From: an uncultured Synechococcales cyanobacterium
GTDB lineage: Bacteria > Cyanobacteriota > Cyanobacteriia > Thermosynechococcales > Thermosynechococcaceae
Length of the DNA: 64,000 bases
Direction: 5' to 3'
Assembly: GCA_902806435.1 (NCBI GenBank)
Contig: CADCWO010000002.1
Span: 1-64,000, forward strand
A program made the position numbers and the translations under genes. Shown in pieces: positions 10,841-26,798 of this stretch. Every line of letters starts with the position of its first letter. Within the stretch, counting starts at the first letter, position 1. Below the pieces are notes generated by a model. It was given only the letters and a program-made list of their open reading frames with translations, had not been told where the DNA came from and made no database searches.

Positions 10841-12215
10841 GCCAATTCACACGTTTTTGGCAGATTTATCTGAGTTGCCGCAGCCTGATGAATTTGATGA
10901 ACCCTACCCAGGTTATGAAGGTCGCAGACGAAAAGCTGCCTTAGCCTTAGCCTTGATCTGGAGTGGAACCATTGCTCTGCATTTGCTCTCCGGTGGGTAC
11001 TGGCTAGTTGTTGGGGTAACAACCCTGATGGGGGTGCATACCTTACGGGTATTACTGGCCCAGCGCTCAACGGTCCCCATACCCATGTCAGATGACACGC
11101 CAGAAGCGGAGTGGCCCTACGTTTCACTCTTGGTTGCGGCTAAGAATGAATCAGCAGTAATCGCTTCTTCAATCCGTACGTTATGTAATCTGGATTACCC
11201 TACCAGTCGTTATGAAGTCTGGATCATTGATGACGGTAGTACTGACCAAACACCAGCTCTATTAAAGGAACTCACTCAACAGTACAAACAGCTGCAAGTG
11301 TTGTATCGCCTGCCTGGAGCTGGGGGGGGTAAGTCTGGTGCTCTCAACGAAGTTTTACCCCTGAGCAAAGGTGAAATTGTCGGTGTCTTTGATGCGGATG
11401 CTCAAGTTCCCCAAGATTTGCTACGCCGGGTTCTGCCTCTCTTTCAACGGCAGCAAGTGGGAGCCGTGCAAGTCCGCAAGGCGATCGCCAACGCTGCTAC
11501 TAACTTCTGGACACGCGGGCAAATGGCTGAGATGGCTTTTGACAGCTTTATTCAGCAACAGCGTGTTGCCTTTGGCGGCCTGGGAGAGCTACGGGGCAAC
11601 GGCCAGTTTGTACGTCGTAGCGCCCTAGAGGGTTGTGGTGGCTGGAATGAGCAGACGATCACCGATGACTTGGACCTCACCCTGCGTCTGCACCTGGATC
11701 AGTGGGATATTGACTTTCTGGCCTCTCCAGCCGTCGAAGAAGAGGGGGTAACCCGTGCTCTTGCCTTATGGCACCAACGGAACCGTTGGGCAGAAGGCGG
11801 CTACCAACGATATCTTGACTACTGGCGATTGATTGTTCGCAACCGCTTGGGTACCCGTAAAACAGTCGATCTGGTGATGTTTTGGATCATGCAGTACCTG
11901 CTACCGACGGCTGCATTGCCTGATTTTGTGATGGCGATCGCCCGCAACCGTCCGCCGGTTTTATTGCCAATAACCAATCTCACCGTCAGTATCTCTCTTG
12001 TCGGAATGCTACTCGGTCTGAAGCGATTTCGGACTAAACCAGCCACTATACCCTTATTAACCCTACTTCAGGTTTTGCGGGGCACGTTATACATGTTTCA
12101 CTGGTTGCCAGTGATTGCTAGTACAACGGTTCGCATTTCTCTACGCCCGAAGCGCTTGAAGTGGGTCAAGACCATGCACCAAGGCACGGATGACTGGCTG
12201 GACGTGCCGGAATAG
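10794..12215 (+). CDS. mgdA: Beta-monoglucosyldiacylglycerol synthase
   Basis: 473 residues, a GT2 family glycosyltransferase. It transfers glucose from UDP-glucose to diacylglycerol, the first step in cyanobacterial galactolipid synthesis; the product is later epimerised to MGDG. Catalytic motifs in order: WIIDDGSTD, the DxD of VFDADAQ, ITDDLDL, and HQRNRW (QxxRW). Membrane segments lie near residues 45-75 and in the last 120 residues. The sequence closely resembles Synechocystis Sll1377 as I remember it, including GRRxRKAALxL, ELRGNGQFVRR and the terminal RPKRLKWVKT. ATG at 10794 lies inside the preceding radical SAM gene. Confidence 0.93.
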   Translation: MSKNFWPENNFSNTSEPIHTFLADLSELPQPDEFDEPYPGYEGRRRKAALALALIWSGTIALHLLSGGYWLVVGVTTLMGVHTLRVLLAQRSTVPIPMSDDTPEAEWPYVSLLVAAKNESAVIASSIRTLCNLDYPTSRYEVWIIDDGSTDQTPALLKELTQQYKQLQVLYRLPGAGGGKSGALNEVLPLSKGEIVGVFDADAQVPQDLLRRVLPLFQRQQVGAVQVRKAIANAATNFWTRGQMAEMAFDSFIQQQRVAFGGLGELRGNGQFVRRSALEGCGGWNEQTITDDLDLTLRLHLDQWDIDFLASPAVEEEGVTRALALWHQRNRWAEGGYQRYLDYWRLIVRNRLGTRKTVDLVMFWIMQYLLPTAALPDFVMAIARNRPPVLLPITNLTVSISLVGMLLGLKRFRTKPATIPLLTLLQVLRGTLYMFHWLPVIASTTVRISLRPKRLKWVKTMHQGTDDWLDVPE

Positions 12216-12217
12216 CT

Positions 12218-14557
12218 TTAGAAGGGAAGATCATCTGATTCCTCAAGCTCAGTGACCGAATCTTCAGCATTTGTTAAGGGTTGAGTTAAGCTATACGGCT
12301 GTTCAGAGCCAGCTTCAGTTAACGCAACTGGTACAGCTTCACCCTTCTCTGGGTTGACAACCTCGCCATTAAAAAACTGGGCTAAACTTTTAGCCGCTCT
12401 TAGGACCTCATCTTCTTGCCAGCTTGGAATCAGTGGTTCTGTGGCTCTGATTTGACTGGGTGTCAGCGCTCCTGAAGGCTGGCTCTCTTGCGTCACCAAT
12501 GTCTCTACTGCCGGTGGAGGTGGAATCAAGGAGACAGGCGCTGCTTCAAAGGGCTGAGTATTCTCTAGATGGTGATTTGGCGTAGTGACTGGTGGTAGTC
12601 CTGGCGTGGCAGAAGTAGGAGAATGACTATTGGTAGCAGCATTCAGCGGGCGGTCTTCAGGGGGCTTTATGGGGGCGATCAATTCTGATGAAGCTACAAC
12701 GGCTAGACTTGCCTGCACCTGACAGTTGAAAGCTTTCTCAAAGGCGGCTTCAACATTCGGTAATCTTGCCTGGGCCATTTTAAATAGTGGCTGTGAACTA
12801 ATCGCAATTTGGGCTTTTTGGCCGTTAAAAGCCAATAGGCGGCCCTGCTGTCGCAGGAGAGCCTGAGTACCGGGAGGGTGAAGGTGCATAATTACCTTCT
12901 GCCAAATTTGGTCCAGGTCAAGTTGAACAGTAGTATCCGTAGGAGAAAGTGCAGCCGGTTCTTTCCCCTGAGCTAAGGCTGAAGCAGCTGCTAAATCTTG
13001 GTCTCCTAGGTAACGATTACCTCTTGATGGCAGCGGGGCCTGAGTTTCAGTAGACGCTACTGAGCCGAGTCTAGAAGAGTCTAGTTTTGGTTTCTGGAGC
13101 CTCTCCTCCATCGGTTGCAAGAACATTGACGGGTTAGGGTTCTGAGAGGGCTCTGATCCAATCTGGCTCAACTTATCTTGTACCACAGCATTTGGAGCAG
13201 TGACTGGTGCAATCTCCATTACTGTTATTAGCTCAGGCAGTGTTGGTGCAGTAGTAACAGTTTCTATAACTGAAGGAACTAATTCTGGCGTAGCCTGTTC
13301 TGTCTGGCTGTTGAAATCTGAGGCCACTGCCCCAGGATGTTTCTCTAACTGGCGTGATGGAACGGGTTGGGTCGGCTTCTGAAGGTGCCTTTGAATTGGC
13401 TTAACCTCAGAGCTGAAGTTAGTTATATCCTTCGGACTAGCTGGGGAGATGTCTACAGGTGGTAACAAGCCTAGAAGCGTCACTTCTAGCCATAAGCGAG
13501 GCTGAGCAGTATTTTTGATTTGCACTTCGCAAGCCCGCAGGTGTTGCTGCCCCGTGAGGATGATTGAGGTGTCAAGGGTTTGGGCCAGCTGACAAAGTTG
13601 GTCCCAGACTGACGGGGTAATCATTACCAAGTCCTGTCGGTGGGGCGCGGTTTTGGCAATCAATAAATCTCGGTAGAAACCAGCTAGGTTTTGCAGCACG
13701 ATCAGCGGCTCCCGGCCTCGGTCCATTAGATGCCGTGCTTGCTCTAGAACCGCTTCTGGGTTGTTGGCGGTAATCGCGTGCACTAAGTACATTAAATCCC
13801 GTTCTGGCACGGCTCCAACCAAGTCCCAGACTTGCTCGATTGTGATGGGGGGCGGCAATAAGCTCAGCTGGTCTAGCAAGCTTTCCGCATCCCGCAATCC
13901 TCCCTGAGCAAGTTGGCCAACTAGTTGCACGGCATCGGGGTGGATGTTAATCCCTTCTTGAGTAGCAATCGCGCTCAAATGCCCGACCATTGGCTCCAGG
14001 GGAATGCGCCGGAAGTCAAACCGTTGGCAGCGGGAAATAATCGTAGGTAGCACTCGCTGGGGGTCAGTCGTTGCTAGGACAAAGACGACGCGATCCGGCG
14101 GCTCTTCCAAAGTTTTCAGTAAGGCATTGAATGCCGCAACCGACAACATATGACATTCATCTATGACATACACTTTGTAACGGCACTGGACCGGGGCAAA
14201 TTGGGCACGTTCGATCAACTCCCGGATATTGTCCACCCCAGTGTTGCTAGCCGCGTCGATTTCAATCACATCCAGGGCTGTCCCTCGCCCGATCGCCTTA
14301 CAGACCTCACAGACACCACAGGGTTTGTCTGTCGGAACCTTGCTGGCAAGACAGTTAAGGGACTTTGCTAGAATCCGGGCGCTAGAGGTTTTGCCTGTTC
14401 CCCTGGGACCTGTAAATAGATAGGCTGGGGCAATGCGTGTTTGGCAGATTGCATTGGTCAAGGTTGTGGCAATCGCCTCTTGGCCTACCAAGTCAGCAAA
14501 GGTCTGGGGACGATATTTATGATGTAACGGCTCGTATGGCATTAGGTCTAGAGACAT
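12218..14557 (-). CDS. dnaX: DNA polymerase III gamma/tau subunit (DnaX)
   Basis: 779 residues. The clamp-loader ATPase domain occupies about the first 370 residues: Walker A GPRGTGKT (50-57), zinc-module cysteines C69, C80, C83, C86, and Walker B VIDEC (132-136). The rest is a long Pro/Ser/Thr-rich linker with a tau-like C-terminal region (about 540-620) for polymerase contact. Some cyanobacterial dnaX genes carry an intein; here the ATPase domain is uninterrupted. The start could be the ATG at 14555-14557 or the in-frame ATG five codons later (MPYEPLHHKYRP). It converges with mgdA, leaving two bases between stops. Confidence 0.97.
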   Translation of the reverse strand: MSLDLMPYEPLHHKYRPQTFADLVGQEAIATTLTNAICQTRIAPAYLFTGPRGTGKTSSARILAKSLNCLASKVPTDKPCGVCEVCKAIGRGTALDVIEIDAASNTGVDNIRELIERAQFAPVQCRYKVYVIDECHMLSVAAFNALLKTLEEPPDRVVFVLATTDPQRVLPTIISRCQRFDFRRIPLEPMVGHLSAIATQEGINIHPDAVQLVGQLAQGGLRDAESLLDQLSLLPPPITIEQVWDLVGAVPERDLMYLVHAITANNPEAVLEQARHLMDRGREPLIVLQNLAGFYRDLLIAKTAPHRQDLVMITPSVWDQLCQLAQTLDTSIILTGQQHLRACEVQIKNTAQPRLWLEVTLLGLLPPVDISPASPKDITNFSSEVKPIQRHLQKPTQPVPSRQLEKHPGAVASDFNSQTEQATPELVPSVIETVTTAPTLPELITVMEIAPVTAPNAVVQDKLSQIGSEPSQNPNPSMFLQPMEERLQKPKLDSSRLGSVASTETQAPLPSRGNRYLGDQDLAAASALAQGKEPAALSPTDTTVQLDLDQIWQKVIMHLHPPGTQALLRQQGRLLAFNGQKAQIAISSQPLFKMAQARLPNVEAAFEKAFNCQVQASLAVVASSELIAPIKPPEDRPLNAATNSHSPTSATPGLPPVTTPNHHLENTQPFEAAPVSLIPPPPAVETLVTQESQPSGALTPSQIRATEPLIPSWQEDEVLRAAKSLAQFFNGEVVNPEKGEAVPVALTEAGSEQPYSLTQPLTNAEDSVTELEESDDLPF

Positions 14558-19847: not shown

Positions 19848-22800
19848 CTAAACAAACAGGCTCAGTTGAGAACCGTCGACAGTTTTGGTAACTTCGATCC
19901 GGGTTTGAAAGGCTTCCTTCAAGGAGGGCATATGGGTGACAGTGAGAATGCAGGCAAAATCTGGAGCGATCGCATTGATTGCAGCGATCAACCGTTCACA
20001 CCCTTCCGTGTCCTGGGTGCCAAAGCCCTCGTCAATCACCAGCATCTGCAAGTCACTGCCGGTACGCTGGGCCAGCAGCCGTGACAGGGCAAGGCGAATC
20101 GCAAAGTTCACCCGAAATGCCTCTCCCCCAGAGTAGGTTTCGTAGGGCCGTGTCCCCTGGGCATCTGCGATCAAGATATCTAAGGTGTCAATCAACCGGG
20201 TTTTCGGGCTACGACCGGCACGTTGAGTCACGAAATGCACGTGCAGTTGATTGGCGCTGAGGCGAGCTAAAAATTGATTAGTTTCTGCCTCCAGTTGGGG
20301 CAAGACATTCTCAATCATCAGTGCCTGGATGCCATTTTTGCCAAAGGCTTGAGCAAGTTCTTGGTAAACCTGGTACTGGCGACGAGCGGTTTGGAGCTGT
20401 TGCTGTTGTGCTTGCTGCTGCACCTTTAAGATTGTCAATTGTTGTTGTTGTTGTTGAAGACGTCCTAGTTGGGTCATCCTGGCGTCAAGCTGGTTACGTC
20501 GCTGCTGGATCTGTTGCGCTAAAACTGCGATCTGCTCAGCGGTATCAGGGGTTTGGGCGAGTTGATCCTGAAGATTAGCAATTTGCTCTGTGATCGTCGC
20601 TAAATCCTGCGATCGCACCTGCCGGGCTTGATCCAGCTCGTGCATTTGCTGCTCTACTCGGGGGTACTGCTGCTGCGCTTGCTGCAACGCTTGATAGCGC
20701 AACTGCCAGACTTGAGCCTGCCGTATAGCAGTGCGGATAGCATTGTGCTGTTCCAAGCTGTAATCCAGTTCAGCTAACTCGGACTCTAGCTGCTCAATCT
20801 GTTGCTGTACGGCTGAGCTATGAAGCTGCTGCTCCAGGTGGTGGAGTCTGGCCGTCTCAGCATCCAACTCCGGCAACCTGGAGGCTATCTGGGCTTGACG
20901 ACGTTGAGCTTGCTTAATTTCGGCGTGTTTAATTTCCGCCCATCGCCAGTGCTCAACTTGCCCCCGCGCTAGAGCATGGTCTTTTTCGTCGTAGTTAAGT
21001 TTCTGAAGCGTTTGTTCCAGTTGGTGCAGCTCAGCGCGCACAGGGGCGGCGTAGTCTCCGGTGGTAAGGGATCTCTCAACGGCATTAACTTCTGCCCCAA
21101 TTTGGGCCAAAGCTATTTTTAGATTATCGGTTGTCTGCAATTGTTCTTGCAGTTGGCCTCGCCGCTCCAGTGTTAGGTGATAGGCTTTCAGTTCTTGATC
21201 TAAGCGGCGGTACTCACCGCGCAAAACCTGGATTTCGCGCTCCGAGACGGCCATTTGCTCCCGCACTACCCAGATCTGGTTGAGAATTTCCTGTTTCTCC
21301 TTGGCTTGTTTCTGCTGCACCAGCTCCCAATGAGTAGCCTCGAGTGGGCGATCGCACAACGGGCAAAGAGCGTTCGGCTGACCAAGAAACTCCATTTTTT
21401 GCGCTAGTTGCGCTAGCCGAGTTTCGTACTCACGTTGTTGCCCTTGCAACCGCTCCATAAAGCTGCGACGTTCTAAACCTTTTTCCTGCACATGCTGCTG
21501 GTAAACGCGTTTTTTCTCTAAATGGTCAATCTGCTCGGTTACCGTGAGGACAGCCTGCTTGATCTGGGGCTGGCGAGATTGCTGAGCTTGCAACTGCTGG
21601 GCACTGTTGTGGAGTTCTTCCAGGTGGGCATTCAGTCGCGAGGTTTGGTGTTCTAACTGAAGTTGCAACTGCTGCTGACGCTGAAGCAAGGGAAATACCT
21701 GGGTTTGCAGTTGATCTAATTGCTGGAGCTGGGCGCGAGCTGCGTGCAATTTTTCTAGAGCAGCTTCAATATCTAGTGCTTTGCGCAGGATTTGTTGAAT
21801 CTCCTGGGATTGTTGGTGCAGTACTGATCGCTGAGCTTCAACCTGCTGGAGTTGACGTTGCAACTCCTGCTGCTGGGATTGTTGCTGCTGCTGTAAAGTT
21901 TGCTGTCGCTCCTGGGCAACCTGGTAAGCCTGAGATTTAGCAGCCTGAGCTTCTTCTTGCACTTGCAAGCGCTGAAAGCGAGTGAACTCCACCGTAATTT
22001 GATTGGCTTGCTGCAACAGGGTTACCAATCCTTGCTGCTGCTGCTGAGTGGTGCTCCATTGTTCTTGCAGGTGTTGCAAGTCTTGGGTCAGGGCCTGTTG
22101 CTGGTGCTGCTGCCACTGGAGTTGCTGCTGCCAGATTTGTCGCTGTTGTTGCGTTGCTTGTAATGCCTGTAACTGTTCACTGTTGGATTGTTGGAGCAGC
22201 CGCATTTGAGCAAGCGCTGCTTCCAAACTGGCTTGTTCGGTGGTGATCGCCGAGTGCTGCTGCAACTGAACCTCAATCGAGGCAGAACTTTGCTCCAAGA
22301 GCGTAATCTGCCCCTTGAATTGGCGTGAGAGATCTTTGGCTTTCTCTGCTAAAGTATCGTATTCGTCTAGTTTCAGTAGTTCTGATAGAAGTTGCTTGCG
22401 ATCGCTGGGCCGCTTGAGCATGAATTCATCCGCTCGGCCTTGGCGCAAGTAAGCTGAGTTGACAAACGTTTCGTAGTCCAACTTGAGGTGAGACAGAATG
22501 GCTTCTTGGGTTGCCCGCAATCCACGCTCAGTCAAGCTCCGAAAGCCAGTAGGGGTAGCTACTTGAAACTCTAAGCTGCTAGCCTGACCTCGGTGACGAT
22601 TGCGGATAATCCGGTAGGTGTGCTGGTGACTGTTAAAAACAAAGCTAACTTGTGCTTCTTTGGTACCAACGTGAATCACATCTTCTTCTGAGCTAGCCCG
22701 GCTTTGGCCCCACACCGCCCAGGCAATCGCTTCTAAAAGTGAAGATTTTCCCGCTCCATTCGGGCCACAAATTCCGGCAACATGCAGGCCCCGAAAGTCG

Positions 22801-22856
22801 AGGGTTGCTTCTCGGTAACTCAGAAAGTTCTTGAGGGTAAGTTGCTGCGGAATCAT
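19848..22856 (-). CDS. sbcC: SbcC/Rad50-type DNA double-strand-break repair ATPase
   Basis: 1002 residues. N-terminal Walker A GPNGAGKS (31-38) and C-terminal signature YSGGEAFRVNFAIRLALSRL plus Walker B MLVIDEGFGTQD form the ABC ATPase head. Between them lies a long Gln-rich coiled coil with a zinc hook CPLCD near residue 497. The SbcCD nuclease opens hairpins and cuts blocked ends; the SbcD partner is not adjacent. A LexA-type box lies 36 bases upstream of the ATG (22854-22856), suggesting SOS control. The coding strand is dominated by Gln codons, giving CTG/TTG-rich repeats on the plus strand. Confidence 0.93.
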   Translation of the reverse strand: MIPQQLTLKNFLSYREATLDFRGLHVAGICGPNGAGKSSLLEAIAWAVWGQSRASSEEDVIHVGTKEAQVSFVFNSHQHTYRIIRNRHRGQASSLEFQVATPTGFRSLTERGLRATQEAILSHLKLDYETFVNSAYLRQGRADEFMLKRPSDRKQLLSELLKLDEYDTLAEKAKDLSRQFKGQITLLEQSSASIEVQLQQHSAITTEQASLEAALAQMRLLQQSNSEQLQALQATQQQRQIWQQQLQWQQHQQQALTQDLQHLQEQWSTTQQQQQGLVTLLQQANQITVEFTRFQRLQVQEEAQAAKSQAYQVAQERQQTLQQQQQSQQQELQRQLQQVEAQRSVLHQQSQEIQQILRKALDIEAALEKLHAARAQLQQLDQLQTQVFPLLQRQQQLQLQLEHQTSRLNAHLEELHNSAQQLQAQQSRQPQIKQAVLTVTEQIDHLEKKRVYQQHVQEKGLERRSFMERLQGQQREYETRLAQLAQKMEFLGQPNALCPLCDRPLEATHWELVQQKQAKEKQEILNQIWVVREQMAVSEREIQVLRGEYRRLDQELKAYHLTLERRGQLQEQLQTTDNLKIALAQIGAEVNAVERSLTTGDYAAPVRAELHQLEQTLQKLNYDEKDHALARGQVEHWRWAEIKHAEIKQAQRRQAQIASRLPELDAETARLHHLEQQLHSSAVQQQIEQLESELAELDYSLEQHNAIRTAIRQAQVWQLRYQALQQAQQQYPRVEQQMHELDQARQVRSQDLATITEQIANLQDQLAQTPDTAEQIAVLAQQIQQRRNQLDARMTQLGRLQQQQQQLTILKVQQQAQQQQLQTARRQYQVYQELAQAFGKNGIQALMIENVLPQLEAETNQFLARLSANQLHVHFVTQRAGRSPKTRLIDTLDILIADAQGTRPYETYSGGEAFRVNFAIRLALSRLLAQRTGSDLQMLVIDEGFGTQDTEGCERLIAAINAIAPDFACILTVTHMPSLKEAFQTRIEVTKTVDGSQLSLFV

Positions 22857-22891: not shown

Positions 22892-22907
22892 CAGTACATT
22901 TGTACTG
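22892..22907. promoter_or_regulatory. LexA-type operator upstream of sbcC
   Basis: AGTACATTTGTACT at 22893-22906 fits the cyanobacterial LexA consensus RGTACNNNDGTWCB. The inverted arms extend to CAGTACA/TGTACTG (22892-22907). It sits 36 bases before the sbcC start codon, in a good position to block transcription. Confidence 0.7.
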
Positions 22908-23091
22908 TTCTACAGTCTAACGGCTGAAATAAACGCCTGTACAGGGATTACAGCGATAAAACCTCAATTTTGCATTACTTTCTGCCCTAGATGGTGGTTG
23001 GACTGATGGAAATAATCCAACGCTTGTTAACCCTCCATGATGGATATGCACTTTTGGGCTTACTCTAGATTTGCCACTAGTTCAAGCAGTA

Positions 23092-23107
23092 TAGTACATA
23101 TGTACTA
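23092..23107. promoter_or_regulatory. LexA-type operator upstream of an unknown gene
   Basis: TAGTACATATGTACTA is a perfect 16-bp palindrome whose core AGTACATATGTACT fits RGTACNNNDGTWCB. It ends 24 bases before the ATG of the 155-residue gene at 23132. It is a second LexA-type site in the same divergent intergenic region as sbcC. Confidence 0.72.
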
Positions 23108-23131
23108 GTTACTAGAAGGAAAGCGCGGGTT

Positions 23132-23599
23132 ATGACAGTAGCTAAGCAGCAAAGTTCTTGGGACTACGTGTTGTGCAAAATTGACCGTGTTTATAGCGAC
23201 TACCAAGCGGCAGCAGAAAAAAGAAAGCTACGCACCCTTAGAAAACAACGGCGGCAATTGATTAACGCCAAGCCCGCGTTTCAGAGGGAGTTGGACAAAG
23301 CCGTTAGCGCTAAAATGCAAAGAGGCTTGGGGATGGAGGTCGCTGTGGATCAAAAACGACTGCCTCAACTTCACTTACTTGCCCAGTTTGAGTTTTTGGG
23401 AAAGCAGTGGCTGCTCACCAGCAAGAGAACCTTTCTAAAAGACAAATGGCAGTTATCTGTTGACGATCAACTTGTTTTTTCTGATTGCCCAACCAGAAAT
23501 TTAGAAAATCAGCTGTGCTACGCCTTGGGCAAGTACAAACATTCCCTGCGCCACAAGGTTAAAACGCTCACATTTTTACCACTCGCTAAAGCATCTTAG
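23132..23599 (+). CDS. Unknown basic protein with a LexA-type operator
   Basis: 155 residues, no family recognised. The N-terminal third is strongly basic and helical (KRKLRTLRKQRRQL, residues 30-43); the rest has a mixed pattern with FEFLGKQWLLTSKRTF (86-101) and a basic C-terminus. No signal peptide or membrane span. The base content suits nucleic-acid binding, but this is inference. ATG at 23132 has AAGGA about eleven bases upstream. A perfect LexA-type palindrome immediately upstream, and divergence from sbcC, suggest DNA-damage-induced expression. Function unknown. Confidence 0.8.
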   Translation: MTVAKQQSSWDYVLCKIDRVYSDYQAAAEKRKLRTLRKQRRQLINAKPAFQRELDKAVSAKMQRGLGMEVAVDQKRLPQLHLLAQFEFLGKQWLLTSKRTFLKDKWQLSVDDQLVFSDCPTRNLENQLCYALGKYKHSLRHKVKTLTFLPLAKAS

Positions 23600-23707: not shown

Positions 23708-25216
23708 TCAAGCTCCTGGCTCCGGAATGGTGATTTCTATAGGCGTCACGGTGGGTTGTAGTGTAGTGAGTGGAGGTTTAATTGCCTTTTGGTTGCCCAC
23801 CACCAGCGTCACGAGCTGCTCCGGCTTCAGATAGGTTTGGGCAACTCGTTGCACATCCGCAACCGTCGTTGCTTTCACCCCTTGCTGGTAGCGAAAGATA
23901 AAGTCACGTGGGTAGTTGTAGTATTCGTAGCGCATCAGCCGCGATAGAGTTTGACCGGGCGCTTGAAAGTTGAAGACAAAGGCGTTGAGAACTGAATCTT
24001 TGGCGTAAGCCAGTTCGGCTGCCGTAATTTCTGAGGCGCGAAGCTTAGCAATTTCTGCTCGAACTGCTTGGATAAAGGGAACGGTTGCTTCAGAGCGGGT
24101 CTGACCAGCGGTAATAAATAACCCAGGATAGTCGTACTGCGGGTTCCAGGCGGTGTAGACGGAGTAGGCTAAACCTTGGCGCGATCTCAACTGATTAAAC
24201 AGCCGCCCCCCAAACCCATTCAACACACCATTCATCACATCCAGCGCTGGATAGTCAGGATCACTCAATCGTCCGCCGAGGTGACCCATTTCGATGTAAC
24301 TCTGCGTGAGTTGGGGTTGCTCCACCAAAAAAATTCCATCTTGTTTTGCTTGAGATGCTTGGGGTAGGTTGATCGTAGAGGTAGGTTCTACTGACCCTCC
24401 AGGCACAGGTTGCCAATTCGCAAACCGCTTCTGGATTAGCGATCGCATAATTTGAGGATTAAAATCCCCGACGATCCCCAAAATCATGCCCCTGGGATGG
24501 AAGTACTGCCGGTAGAACTGCACTAGATCGTCGCGGTTGATATTATCTAGCGTTGCATACTCCACAGTGCGCGCGTAGGGGCTGGTGGTGCCATAGATCA
24601 GTTTTTGGAATTCACGGGCAGCAATTCCGTTTGGGTCGTCATTGCGTCGGGCGATGCCACCTCGCCCTTGCATTTTGGCTAGCTCCAGCTTTTCCGGGGA
24701 AAATACTGGCTCTTGAATCACTTCGGCAAACAGGTCAAAAACCACCCCTAAATCTTCACTCAAGGCACTAAAGCTAGCACTACCAGAAGTTTTACCTACC
24801 CCGGTTTCTACTGTCGCCGCCTGCTGCTCCAGCAACTCGTTCAACTGGTCAGCGGAGTGTCGTTGCGTTCCCCCAGTTCGTATCACATGCCCCGTCAGCC
24901 CTGCCAAGCCGATTTTGTCTGCCGGTTCCAGGCGATCGCCAGTCCGGAATACAGCAGTACCACTGATCAAGGGAAGCTCATGATCTTCTAATAAATAGAC
25001 CACAATGCCGTTATCGAGTTGGAAGCGATTGTAATTGGGAATTTGAATTTCCGGGGGTGGTCCAAACTGCAACTCGGTGTAGTGTCGTGGTGAAGCTGCG
25101 TTGGCGGGCATCCGCAGCAGGAGAAACAGTAAAGTCAAGAGCACCAACCCAATCAGGTTGTAGCCAATCCGCTTTAGTGATTGGACTAGGGATAGTCTAT
25201 TCTTCAACCACTGCAT
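23708..25216 (-). CDS. M16 peptidase-family protein, inactive partner subunit
   Basis: 502 residues with an N-terminal hydrophobic signal or anchor (about residues 17-40). It has the pitrilysin/insulinase-type fold (LDNGIVVYLLEDHELPLISG; later GGRLFNQLRSRQGLAYSVY) but the zinc-binding HxxEH expected near residue 106 is replaced by GLTGHVIRTGG, so it should not cleave alone. Such proteins usually pair with an active M16 subunit, here encoded one base upstream (25218-26798). Probably a periplasmic or membrane-bound peptidase complex. ATG at 25214-25216. Confidence 0.9.
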   Translation of the reverse strand: MQWLKNRLSLVQSLKRIGYNLIGLVLLTLLFLLLRMPANAASPRHYTELQFGPPPEIQIPNYNRFQLDNGIVVYLLEDHELPLISGTAVFRTGDRLEPADKIGLAGLTGHVIRTGGTQRHSADQLNELLEQQAATVETGVGKTSGSASFSALSEDLGVVFDLFAEVIQEPVFSPEKLELAKMQGRGGIARRNDDPNGIAAREFQKLIYGTTSPYARTVEYATLDNINRDDLVQFYRQYFHPRGMILGIVGDFNPQIMRSLIQKRFANWQPVPGGSVEPTSTINLPQASQAKQDGIFLVEQPQLTQSYIEMGHLGGRLSDPDYPALDVMNGVLNGFGGRLFNQLRSRQGLAYSVYTAWNPQYDYPGLFITAGQTRSEATVPFIQAVRAEIAKLRASEITAAELAYAKDSVLNAFVFNFQAPGQTLSRLMRYEYYNYPRDFIFRYQQGVKATTVADVQRVAQTYLKPEQLVTLVVGNQKAIKPPLTTLQPTVTPIEITIPEPGA

Positions 25217-25217
25217 C

Positions 25218-26798
25218 TTAGGGTTTCTCCTGCTGTGTTTCAGCCAAAGGTAAAATCTTTCCGACTGTGCGGTTCTGGGGCTGGAAGGTTGCTTGAGCTA
25301 CACGTTGGATATCGACAGGCGTAACCGCGGCGATTGCCGTCAACTCTTGGAACAAGTTTCGCCAGCTACCCGTTTTCACTTCATACTCCAACAACAGCTC
25401 TGCCATCCCTTGGTTCGAGTTTAGTGATTGGAGGAGACCTGCTCGGGCCTGGGTTTTTACCCGGTCTAACTCTGGGGCTGACACTAACTGAGTTTTCAAC
25501 CGCTCAATTTCTGAGTGCAATTTGGTACCGACCTCCTCCACCGTTCGATCGGGAGCTGTCAGGGCATAAAATAGGAGTAAGCTAGGATACTTCTCTCCAG
25601 GAAAACCATTGGCCCCGACCGCATTAAGTGCCAATCGCTTTTCGACTAATGATTGATAGAGGCGAGAAGTGCGACCATCCGTCAGGATACCAGTCAGCAT
25701 TTCATAGACGACTCGATCAGGGTGGTTGAGCGCCGGACGGTGGTAGCCCTCAATGTACCAGGGCTGGGAAGGTAGTCGTAGGGTCACCTCTTTGAGCACT
25801 GTTTGCGGTGGTTCCACAGCTGTCACCGGCGCAGGCATAGGTTTAGCTGGGTAGCGGCCAAAATAAAGCTCTGCCAGTCGCTTCACCTCAGCTGGATCAA
25901 CATCTCCTACCACGGCGATCGCTAAATTACTTGGCACGTAATAGGTTTCAAAAAATTTCTGGACATCCTGACGCGTCAAGTTTTGGATGTCCTTAGCGTA
26001 GCCAATGACCGGACGCCGATAGGGATGCACCGTATAGGCTTTGGCTAGGAACGCTTCAATCATCTGACCAATCGGGGAATTATCTGTGCGTAGCCGCCGT
26101 TCCTCTAGAATGACTTCTTTCTCTTTATAAAACTCCCGATATACAGGTTCTAGAAATCGTTCTGACTCCAGAGACATCCATAGCTCCAACTTGTTGGCAG
26201 GAAAGCTGTAGAAGTAACGTGTGGCATCCGTGGAAGTATTGGCATTGAGACCGACCCCGCCGGCTTGCTCGACAATCTGGCCCAGCTCGTTTTGCTTGAC
26301 GTAGCTCGCTGCTTGGGATTCAACTTTGTCAAACTCTGCTTGCAAAGTGGCTACCTTAGCGCTCTCACCTGCTGCTTTGCTAGCCTGAATCTGGGCAAAA
26401 AGTTGGTCTAAGCGGTTGAGTAAGCGCTGCTCAGCTTCGTAGTTCCGGGTGCCAATCCGAGTGGTTCCTTTGAAGGCTAGGTGCTCTAAAAAGTGAGCGA
26501 CACCGGTTTTGCCCTCTGGTTCGTTGGCACCACCAACATCCGCGTAGGTGAGAAAGGAAACGACCGGAGCTTCATGACGTTCTAAAACAATAAACCTTAA
26601 GCCGTTATCTAAGCGGAAATCGGTTACCCGCTTGGCTACCCGGTCTAAGTAGGGCTGAACGGAGTTAGCTGGAGCGGCCGTGGAGGGCTTTGCAGCTGTC
26701 CTCGCCCAGGCCGGAGCTGATATAAACCCTAATCCCAATAGGAGGAGTAGGAAAACTGCACAGTATCGCAGGCGGTTGCTTAGCCCTTGAAGTACCAA
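25218..26798 (-). CDS. M16 zinc peptidase, active subunit
   Basis: 526 residues with a signal peptide ending near APAWA (residue 32). The zinc motif HFLEH is at residues 102-106, with the downstream glutamate region EVILEERR. M16 peptidases cut unstructured peptides in a closed chamber. The start is a TTG at 26796-26798: no ATG or GTG exists before the signal peptide, an in-frame TAA lies upstream, and AGGTG sits six bases before the TTG. First gene of a two-gene operon with its catalytically dead paralogue. Confidence 0.92.
   Translation of the reverse strand: MVLQGLSNRLRYCAVFLLLLLGLGFISAPAWARTAAKPSTAAPANSVQPYLDRVAKRVTDFRLDNGLRFIVLERHEAPVVSFLTYADVGGANEPEGKTGVAHFLEHLAFKGTTRIGTRNYEAEQRLLNRLDQLFAQIQASKAAGESAKVATLQAEFDKVESQAASYVKQNELGQIVEQAGGVGLNANTSTDATRYFYSFPANKLELWMSLESERFLEPVYREFYKEKEVILEERRLRTDNSPIGQMIEAFLAKAYTVHPYRRPVIGYAKDIQNLTRQDVQKFFETYYVPSNLAIAVVGDVDPAEVKRLAELYFGRYPAKPMPAPVTAVEPPQTVLKEVTLRLPSQPWYIEGYHRPALNHPDRVVYEMLTGILTDGRTSRLYQSLVEKRLALNAVGANGFPGEKYPSLLLFYALTAPDRTVEEVGTKLHSEIERLKTQLVSAPELDRVKTQARAGLLQSLNSNQGMAELLLEYEVKTGSWRNLFQELTAIAAVTPVDIQRVAQATFQPQNRTVGKILPLAETQQEKP

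Follow-up and report, generated by a model that had tools for sequence, protein, structure and literature searches.

The analysed window is a stretch of 64,000 nucleotides, in which an open reading frame for a protein of 155 amino acids (23132..23599, plus strand) lies divergent from sbcC (19848..22856, minus strand). The latter encodes the exonuclease subunit SbcC, an assignment made in the earlier note and confirmed here by TIGR00618 (538.6 bits against a cut-off of 478.5). The 275-bp intergenic region between the two genes holds both LexA-type palindromes described in that note. One of them, AGTACATTTGTACT (22893..22906), lies 36 nt 5′ of the sbcC ATG and is the predicted LexA-type operator of sbcC. 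The other, TAGTACATATGTACTA (23092..23107), is a perfect 16-bp palindrome ending 24 nt before the ATG of the small gene and is the predicted operator of that gene. The claim that each gene has its own strict site was borne out, as both strict boxes (22893–22906 and 23093–23106) match exactly the consensus AGTACWNWTGTACT of Li et al. 2010 (PMC3091678); they also fit RGTACNNNDGTWCB, the box given for Nostoc PCC7120 and quoted there from Mazon et al. A −10-like hexamer, TATAGT (23090..23095, plus strand; 5/6 matches to TATAAT), overlaps the operator of the small gene, and a purine-rich stretch, AGAAGGAAAG (23114..23123, plus strand), 8 nt before the ATG, is, as read from the sequence, a likely ribosome-binding site. 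A consensus promoter scan of the region found none, and no recognisable −35 element was found for the small gene. Downstream and convergent to it, two tandem minus-strand genes at 23708–26798 resemble M16-type metallopeptidases by eye.

The strict pattern GTACNNNNGTAC (GTACN4GTAC) occurs twice in the 64-kb window, and both copies lie inside the divergent intergenic region. The mean in shuffled sequences was 0.23, and two of 100 shuffles reached two copies. The looser RGTACNNNDGTWCB gave five rows at three places, namely the two boxes described here and 12120–12133 (shuffle mean 0.45).

Homologues of the small protein were present in 11 of the 29 genomes of the order, Acaryochloris included, at 28%–49% identity outside its own genome. 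Since these homologues keep the reading frame, the ORF at 23132–23599 is a real gene. A contig scan using the single window protein as query returned no match, and the family profile A1 then refound eight homologues in four Acaryochloris assemblies, one uncultured Acaryochloris, one Acaryochloridaceae, one Thermosynechococcaceae and one uncultured cyanobacterium. Scans of the window protein drew a blank in NCBIfam, gave one PHROG row at E 0.091 and nothing in Pfam below E 0.55. By these scans it belongs to an undescribed family that has no entry in any of the three libraries, and its description as a basic protein of unrecognised family held well beyond the window, all 11 boxed proteins being basic (pI 9.6–11.2). 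Outside the order, matches came only from one cyanobacterial family, f7, among three sets of 386, 386 and 388 genomes spread over the phylum or class, although remote members may be missed because these searches score only about 10 candidates per genome. The gene is not named in the accessible portions of PMC3091678, PMC5101192 and PMC13416735, and it may stand unnamed in the Acaryochloris supplementary table of Li et al. 2010 (PMC3091678).

A GTAC-N4-GTAC box lies upstream of all 11 homologous genes of the order, which together span five genera. It begins 38–46 nt before the chosen ATG in 10 genes and 143 nt before it in G013, and where alternative start codons existed, as in L002, L003 and L008, one was picked by eye. 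Across the 10 neighbourhoods outside the window (113,290 bp), exactly 10 strict boxes were found, each 5′ of a gene of this family, against an order-1 Markov expectation of 0.31. In seven of the 11 genes a TANNGT hexamer extends into the box and is preceded, at a spacing of 17 nt, by TTGACA; one more has TTGACG, and no −35 of this kind is seen in the window gene, L002 or L004. With the box and the putative promoter overlapping in this way, which is not the case in all 11 genes, a repressor on the box would keep RNA polymerase out.

A single LexA of this genome exceeds the family cut-off (TIGR00498, 199.6 bits against 110.95). Its translation has the Ala-Gly cleavage site, the Ser and the Lys in place, the last being a self-cleavage residue of LexA, and its gene has its own box, GGTACAAATGTTCT, 50 nt before the ORF. 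Roles in self-cleavage are assigned to the Ala-Gly site and the Ser in PMC3091678. The presence of lexA, which the earlier note had proposed to check, was thus established together with intact cleavage residues. In the 4,792,292-base genome, AGTACWNWTGTACT matches exactly at five places: the two in the window and three others, 5′ of gyrA (79 bp), 5′ of a gene for a RecA-like AAA_24 ATPase (48 bp) and in the gap separating ftsH from an SSB gene (225 and 231 bp). Allowing up to one mismatch gave 25 rows, compared with two for the reversed-pattern control, and among the places inspected (C64, C95, C193, C230 and C257), boxes precede topA by 88 bp, the chosen start of a second ssb by 6 bp and a C-terminal remnant of umuC by 167 bp. 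The looser RGTACNNNDGTWCB gave 83 rows against 48 for its reversed control, and most loose matches are therefore noise. From these 83 rows, 20 regions were picked by eye for strictness; of the 22 boxes in them, 10 stand only 5′ of a gene, 10 lie inside a reading frame of at least 90 aa and two are neither.

Several of these loci deserve separate mention. At G000:C257:69759-69780 (L020), two overlapping LexA-type boxes, AGTACATATGTACTAATGTACT in a one-strand reading, lie 5′ of gyrA, and at G000:C64:6209-6222 (L022) the box AGTACATTTGTTCT lies 5′ of topA, so that both genes may be LexA targets in this genome. The exact box upstream of the RecA-like ATPase (325 aa) is at G000:C78:34885-34898 (L013). 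The box at G000:C193:5777-5790 (L017) precedes the umuC remnant (129 aa), perhaps a broken umuDC locus. The recA gene (G000:C277:18800-19759, L099) had no LexA-type box in the 346 bp of upstream contig; recA is listed among the most conserved predicted LexA targets in cyanobacteria (PMC3091678).

LexA over the cut-off was found in 12 of the 29 genomes of the order, 10 of which have the small gene, the other two being G011 and G014. Among the 17 genomes without LexA over the cut-off, only G012 (74% complete) has the gene; it is the exception among the 11 gene-bearing genomes, of which the other 10 have LexA. By genus, the gene occurs in four of six with LexA and one of five without. These counts are not independent because the genomes are related. 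NtcA was ruled out as the reader of the box by its spacing, as the accessible literature gives GTA-N8-TAC for NtcA, compared with GTA-N6-TAC here. Given a lexA gene in the genome and strict upstream boxes in 11 of 11 homologues in the order, membership in the LexA regulon is well supported. On this evidence, LexA very probably controls the gene at 23132–23599, whose family is undescribed.

The association with sbcC did not extend beyond this genome. The earlier note had emphasised the divergent pair, and sbcC is a predicted LexA target in two cyanobacteria (Table 3 of PMC3091678). However, sbcC adjoins the small gene only in the window genome and in none of the 10 other neighbourhoods, two of which end at contig ends. 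Close matches to the SbcC N-terminus (E 1e-30) occur in 13 of the 29 genomes, a count restricted to such near relatives, and only the window genome among these also has the small gene. Excluding L089, which is cut at a contig end, from the 12 sbcC relatives left 11 with readable upstream regions; these come from relatives without LexA, and none has a box. Because the neighbour is not conserved, the pairing with sbcC carries no functional weight, and a partnership as an SbcCD accessory was dropped, a close SbcC and the gene also occurring together in the window genome only. Other neighbours are more constant: an ftsH-like gene lies upstream in all seven Acaryochloris loci, and a DUF2064-like gene follows in the same direction in six of the seven and in G013. 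Pfam confirmed DUF2064 in L055 and L063 and FtsH in L055, and the remaining neighbours were named by eye. Overall, the surroundings of the 11 boxed genes are ordinary chromosomal ones.

One weak match in family f7 (E 2.7e-4) led to a wider profile, which found distant relatives in 15 of the 217 genomes of that family. A profile built from these relatives (A3) used 15 of 19 matches; the identical duplicates L050 and L052 and the matches L039 and L051, which lie at contig ends, are not in it. By itself, A3 finds the window gene at 6.1e-15, and its alignment with A1 (hhalign probability 98.1, E 6.5e-14) showed homology over most of the length; this agreement is support rather than a blind test because A3 was gathered with a profile containing A1. 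The 15 distant relatives tested were all acidic (pI 4.6–5.5), so binding to nucleic acids does not characterise the superfamily as a whole. Family scans of these relatives gave scattered single-member rows, the best at E 0.0076 in Pfam and E 0.016 in PHROGs. No GTAC-type box was found in the fetched flanks of the 19 matches, of which L039 and L051 lacked upstream sequence and four rows represent two identical pairs. The earlier note had named homologues lacking a LexA box as evidence against its proposal. Within the order every one of the 11 homologues is boxed, but the distant homologues in the other cyanobacterial family are not, and the box therefore belongs to this branch only. The more general claim of a role in the DNA-damage response is partly supported.

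The surroundings of the distant relatives were different in kind. Neighbourhoods were available for 10 of the 15 genomes (L069 in part), the C-terminally extended L045, L048, L049 and L053 being outside this set, and in all 10 a gene of approximately 224 aa starting like ‘YTRGKKR’ was seen by eye near the relative. Scans of two loci identified a gp53-like tail fibre and a tail-fibre assembly match in L066 and an amidase endolysin in L072, and most other genes had no Pfam or PHROG match. We read this context as a phage- or plasmid-like mobile module, within which most of the relatives appear to lie. A 6.9-kb stretch of the module matched, at 68.7% DNA identity over 24% of its length, a 20,757-bp circular plasmid of Tolypothrix sp. 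PCC 7601 (NZ_CP064893.1, L131), which suggests that family f7 is Nostocales. This plasmid carries an integrase and encodes a relative of the small protein (2e-10 with A3, 1e-4 with A1); its two loose-pattern matches, at 12844 and 16404, are not beside the relative. Searches with tblastn of both branches against plasmids and phages, with blastn of the 6.9-kb stretch against phage records and with profile A2 against viral contigs (155 pattern matches) revealed no match, no match and no relative, respectively. The module in L064–L073 is possibly an undescribed cyanobacterial virus or phage-plasmid.

At least 10 of the 11 boxed proteins have Lys or Arg at positions 31, 32, 38, 40, 41 and 47, which fall within the long N-terminal helix, and at position 136. 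AlphaFold2 models of the window protein (pLDDT 83.5, pTM 0.62, 11 sequences) and of a distant relative (pLDDT 86.0, pTM 0.66, 15 sequences) agreed in the predicted order of a long N-terminal helix, a short helix, five strands forming a sheet and a C-terminal helix. Foldseek gave no row under E 1 against the PDB, and none of its viral rows was significant (best E 0.025, and 0.14 in a second search); rows for Rad50, a DNA-repair ATPase, had E values of 3 or worse and were ignored. In VIA-align, Mediator and CapZ rows led for the window model (Z 6.5 and less), DR_1245, a candidate match for a type III secretion chaperone-like or YbjN fold, reached Z 5.8 (rmsd 6.6, 96 aligned), and the model of the relative reached Z 7.6 with SycT (rmsd 2.9, 77 aligned), all below the Z of 8 under which matches are common background according to the tool. 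The likenesses to Mediator, CapZ and SycT (Z up to 6.5 and 7.6) were accordingly set aside as a common arrangement. The earlier suggestion of a nucleic-acid-binding repair accessory is compatible with the strong positive charge and the conserved basic helix stretch, but no DNA-binding family or fold match for the window protein was found in Pfam, NCBIfam, PHROGs, Foldseek or VIA-align. The suggestion is thus a guess from charge, fold and regulon company.

From the boxes, their conservation, the intact LexA and the charge, together with the predicted fold, we infer the following sequence of repression, induction and binding. LexA seated on the promoter palindrome would block transcription of the small gene and, from the second box, that of sbcC, and its loss would relieve both. 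Inactivation of LexA, for which the canonical route is self-cleavage stimulated by RecA, would allow the protein to be made and would release with it the other boxed genes, comprising two SSB genes, gyrA, topA and the RecA-like ATPase besides sbcC. Most likely, nucleic acid (DNA or RNA) is bound by the Lys/Arg stretch at positions 31–47 of the long helix and a partner protein by the small sheet-and-helix domain. The basic product would then act as an accessory factor on damaged chromosomes. While LexA control of the gene is well supported by the conserved operators, we put the probability of this explanation as a whole, a LexA-repressed gene with such a product, at roughly 0.5.

Chance can be considered first, and it is a very unlikely explanation. 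The loose pattern is mostly noise genome-wide, yet coincidental palindromes are already contradicted by strict boxes at the same place in all 11 homologues, and the excess of the stricter consensus over its control (25 rows against two) points the same way. A more serious question is which signal LexA reads. LexA might bind here while sensing carbon or redox status, placing the regulon outside the SOS response. According to the accessible portion of PMC5101192, a LexA-run DNA-damage response in cyanobacteria is disputed: Synechocystis PCC6803 LexA was reported to act outside repair and not to regulate repair genes, and lexA of Anabaena reportedly shows no induction by UV-B or mitomycin C. The lack of a box in the 346 bp upstream of recA in this genome fits that picture. 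However, the boxed set is mostly concerned with DNA metabolism and the LexA cleavage residues are kept, and we therefore regard a regulon outside the SOS response as improbable here.

The product could also serve the damage response without touching DNA, as a LexA-controlled checkpoint protein delaying division or replication during repair in the manner of SulA and YneA. SOS division inhibitors are typically small, restricted to one lineage and encoded by a single gene under a strict LexA box, a profile that the present gene shares. Pfam and NCBIfam hold models of the SulA/YneA type, but neither scan matched a division-inhibitor family; the strong conserved positive charge would be left unexplained, and no division-protein gene adjoins except the protease gene ftsH upstream in the Acaryochloris loci. 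Such a checkpoint role seems rather unlikely to us. A different origin is conceivable from the distant branch, in which case the protein would have come from, or been given to, a phage- or plasmid-like module and be under LexA for reasons of the mobile element, such as defence or prophage control, rather than repair. The conserved module with tail-fibre and endolysin-type genes, the relative on the Tolypothrix plasmid with its integrase and the homology supported in both profile directions all agree with this. Nevertheless, the boxed genes are embedded in ordinary chromosomal surroundings, their products have inverted charge, box and protein are kept together in five genera, and neither branch matches phage records; we consider such a mobile-element role unlikely. 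A bolder version of the accessory-factor reading would combine these threads: a mobile-module protein brought under LexA in the Acaryochloris/Thermosynechococcaceae lineage, or the reverse, with its charge switched between acidic and strongly basic and its boxed form binding damaged DNA or a replication-repair partner, might represent a new class of SOS effector. We offer this as a speculative idea with low odds.

The gene is LexA-boxed, and its family has no Pfam, NCBIfam or PHROG entry. The conservation of operator and protein is sufficient to justify bench work on this gene. Its strict operator in all 11 gene-bearing genomes of the order makes it a good reporter for the dispute over the LexA damage response in Acaryochloris and its relatives, and the unexpected tie to a mobile module adds a testable evolutionary question.

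Compared with known systems, the predicted fold shares an antiparallel sheet between helices with type III secretion chaperone-like folds (SycT; Deinococcus DR_1245) and the CapZ alpha core, but the Z values below 8 are common background and no sequence relation was found. SulA and YneA are likewise small, lineage-restricted and LexA-boxed, whereas the present protein has no sequence match to them and is strongly basic. The small acidic protein of the f7 mobile module is homologous over most of its length with the same predicted order of helices and strands; in contrast to the boxed proteins, it is acidic, has no visible box and stands beside tail-fibre and lysis-type genes. The closest parallel is the cyanobacterial LexA regulon. 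It differs in that the accessible portion of PMC3091678 does not name the small gene and in that recA of the window genome has no box in 346 bp, but both boxes of the window fit both published patterns, LexA has its own box, and sbcC is a predicted target there as well.
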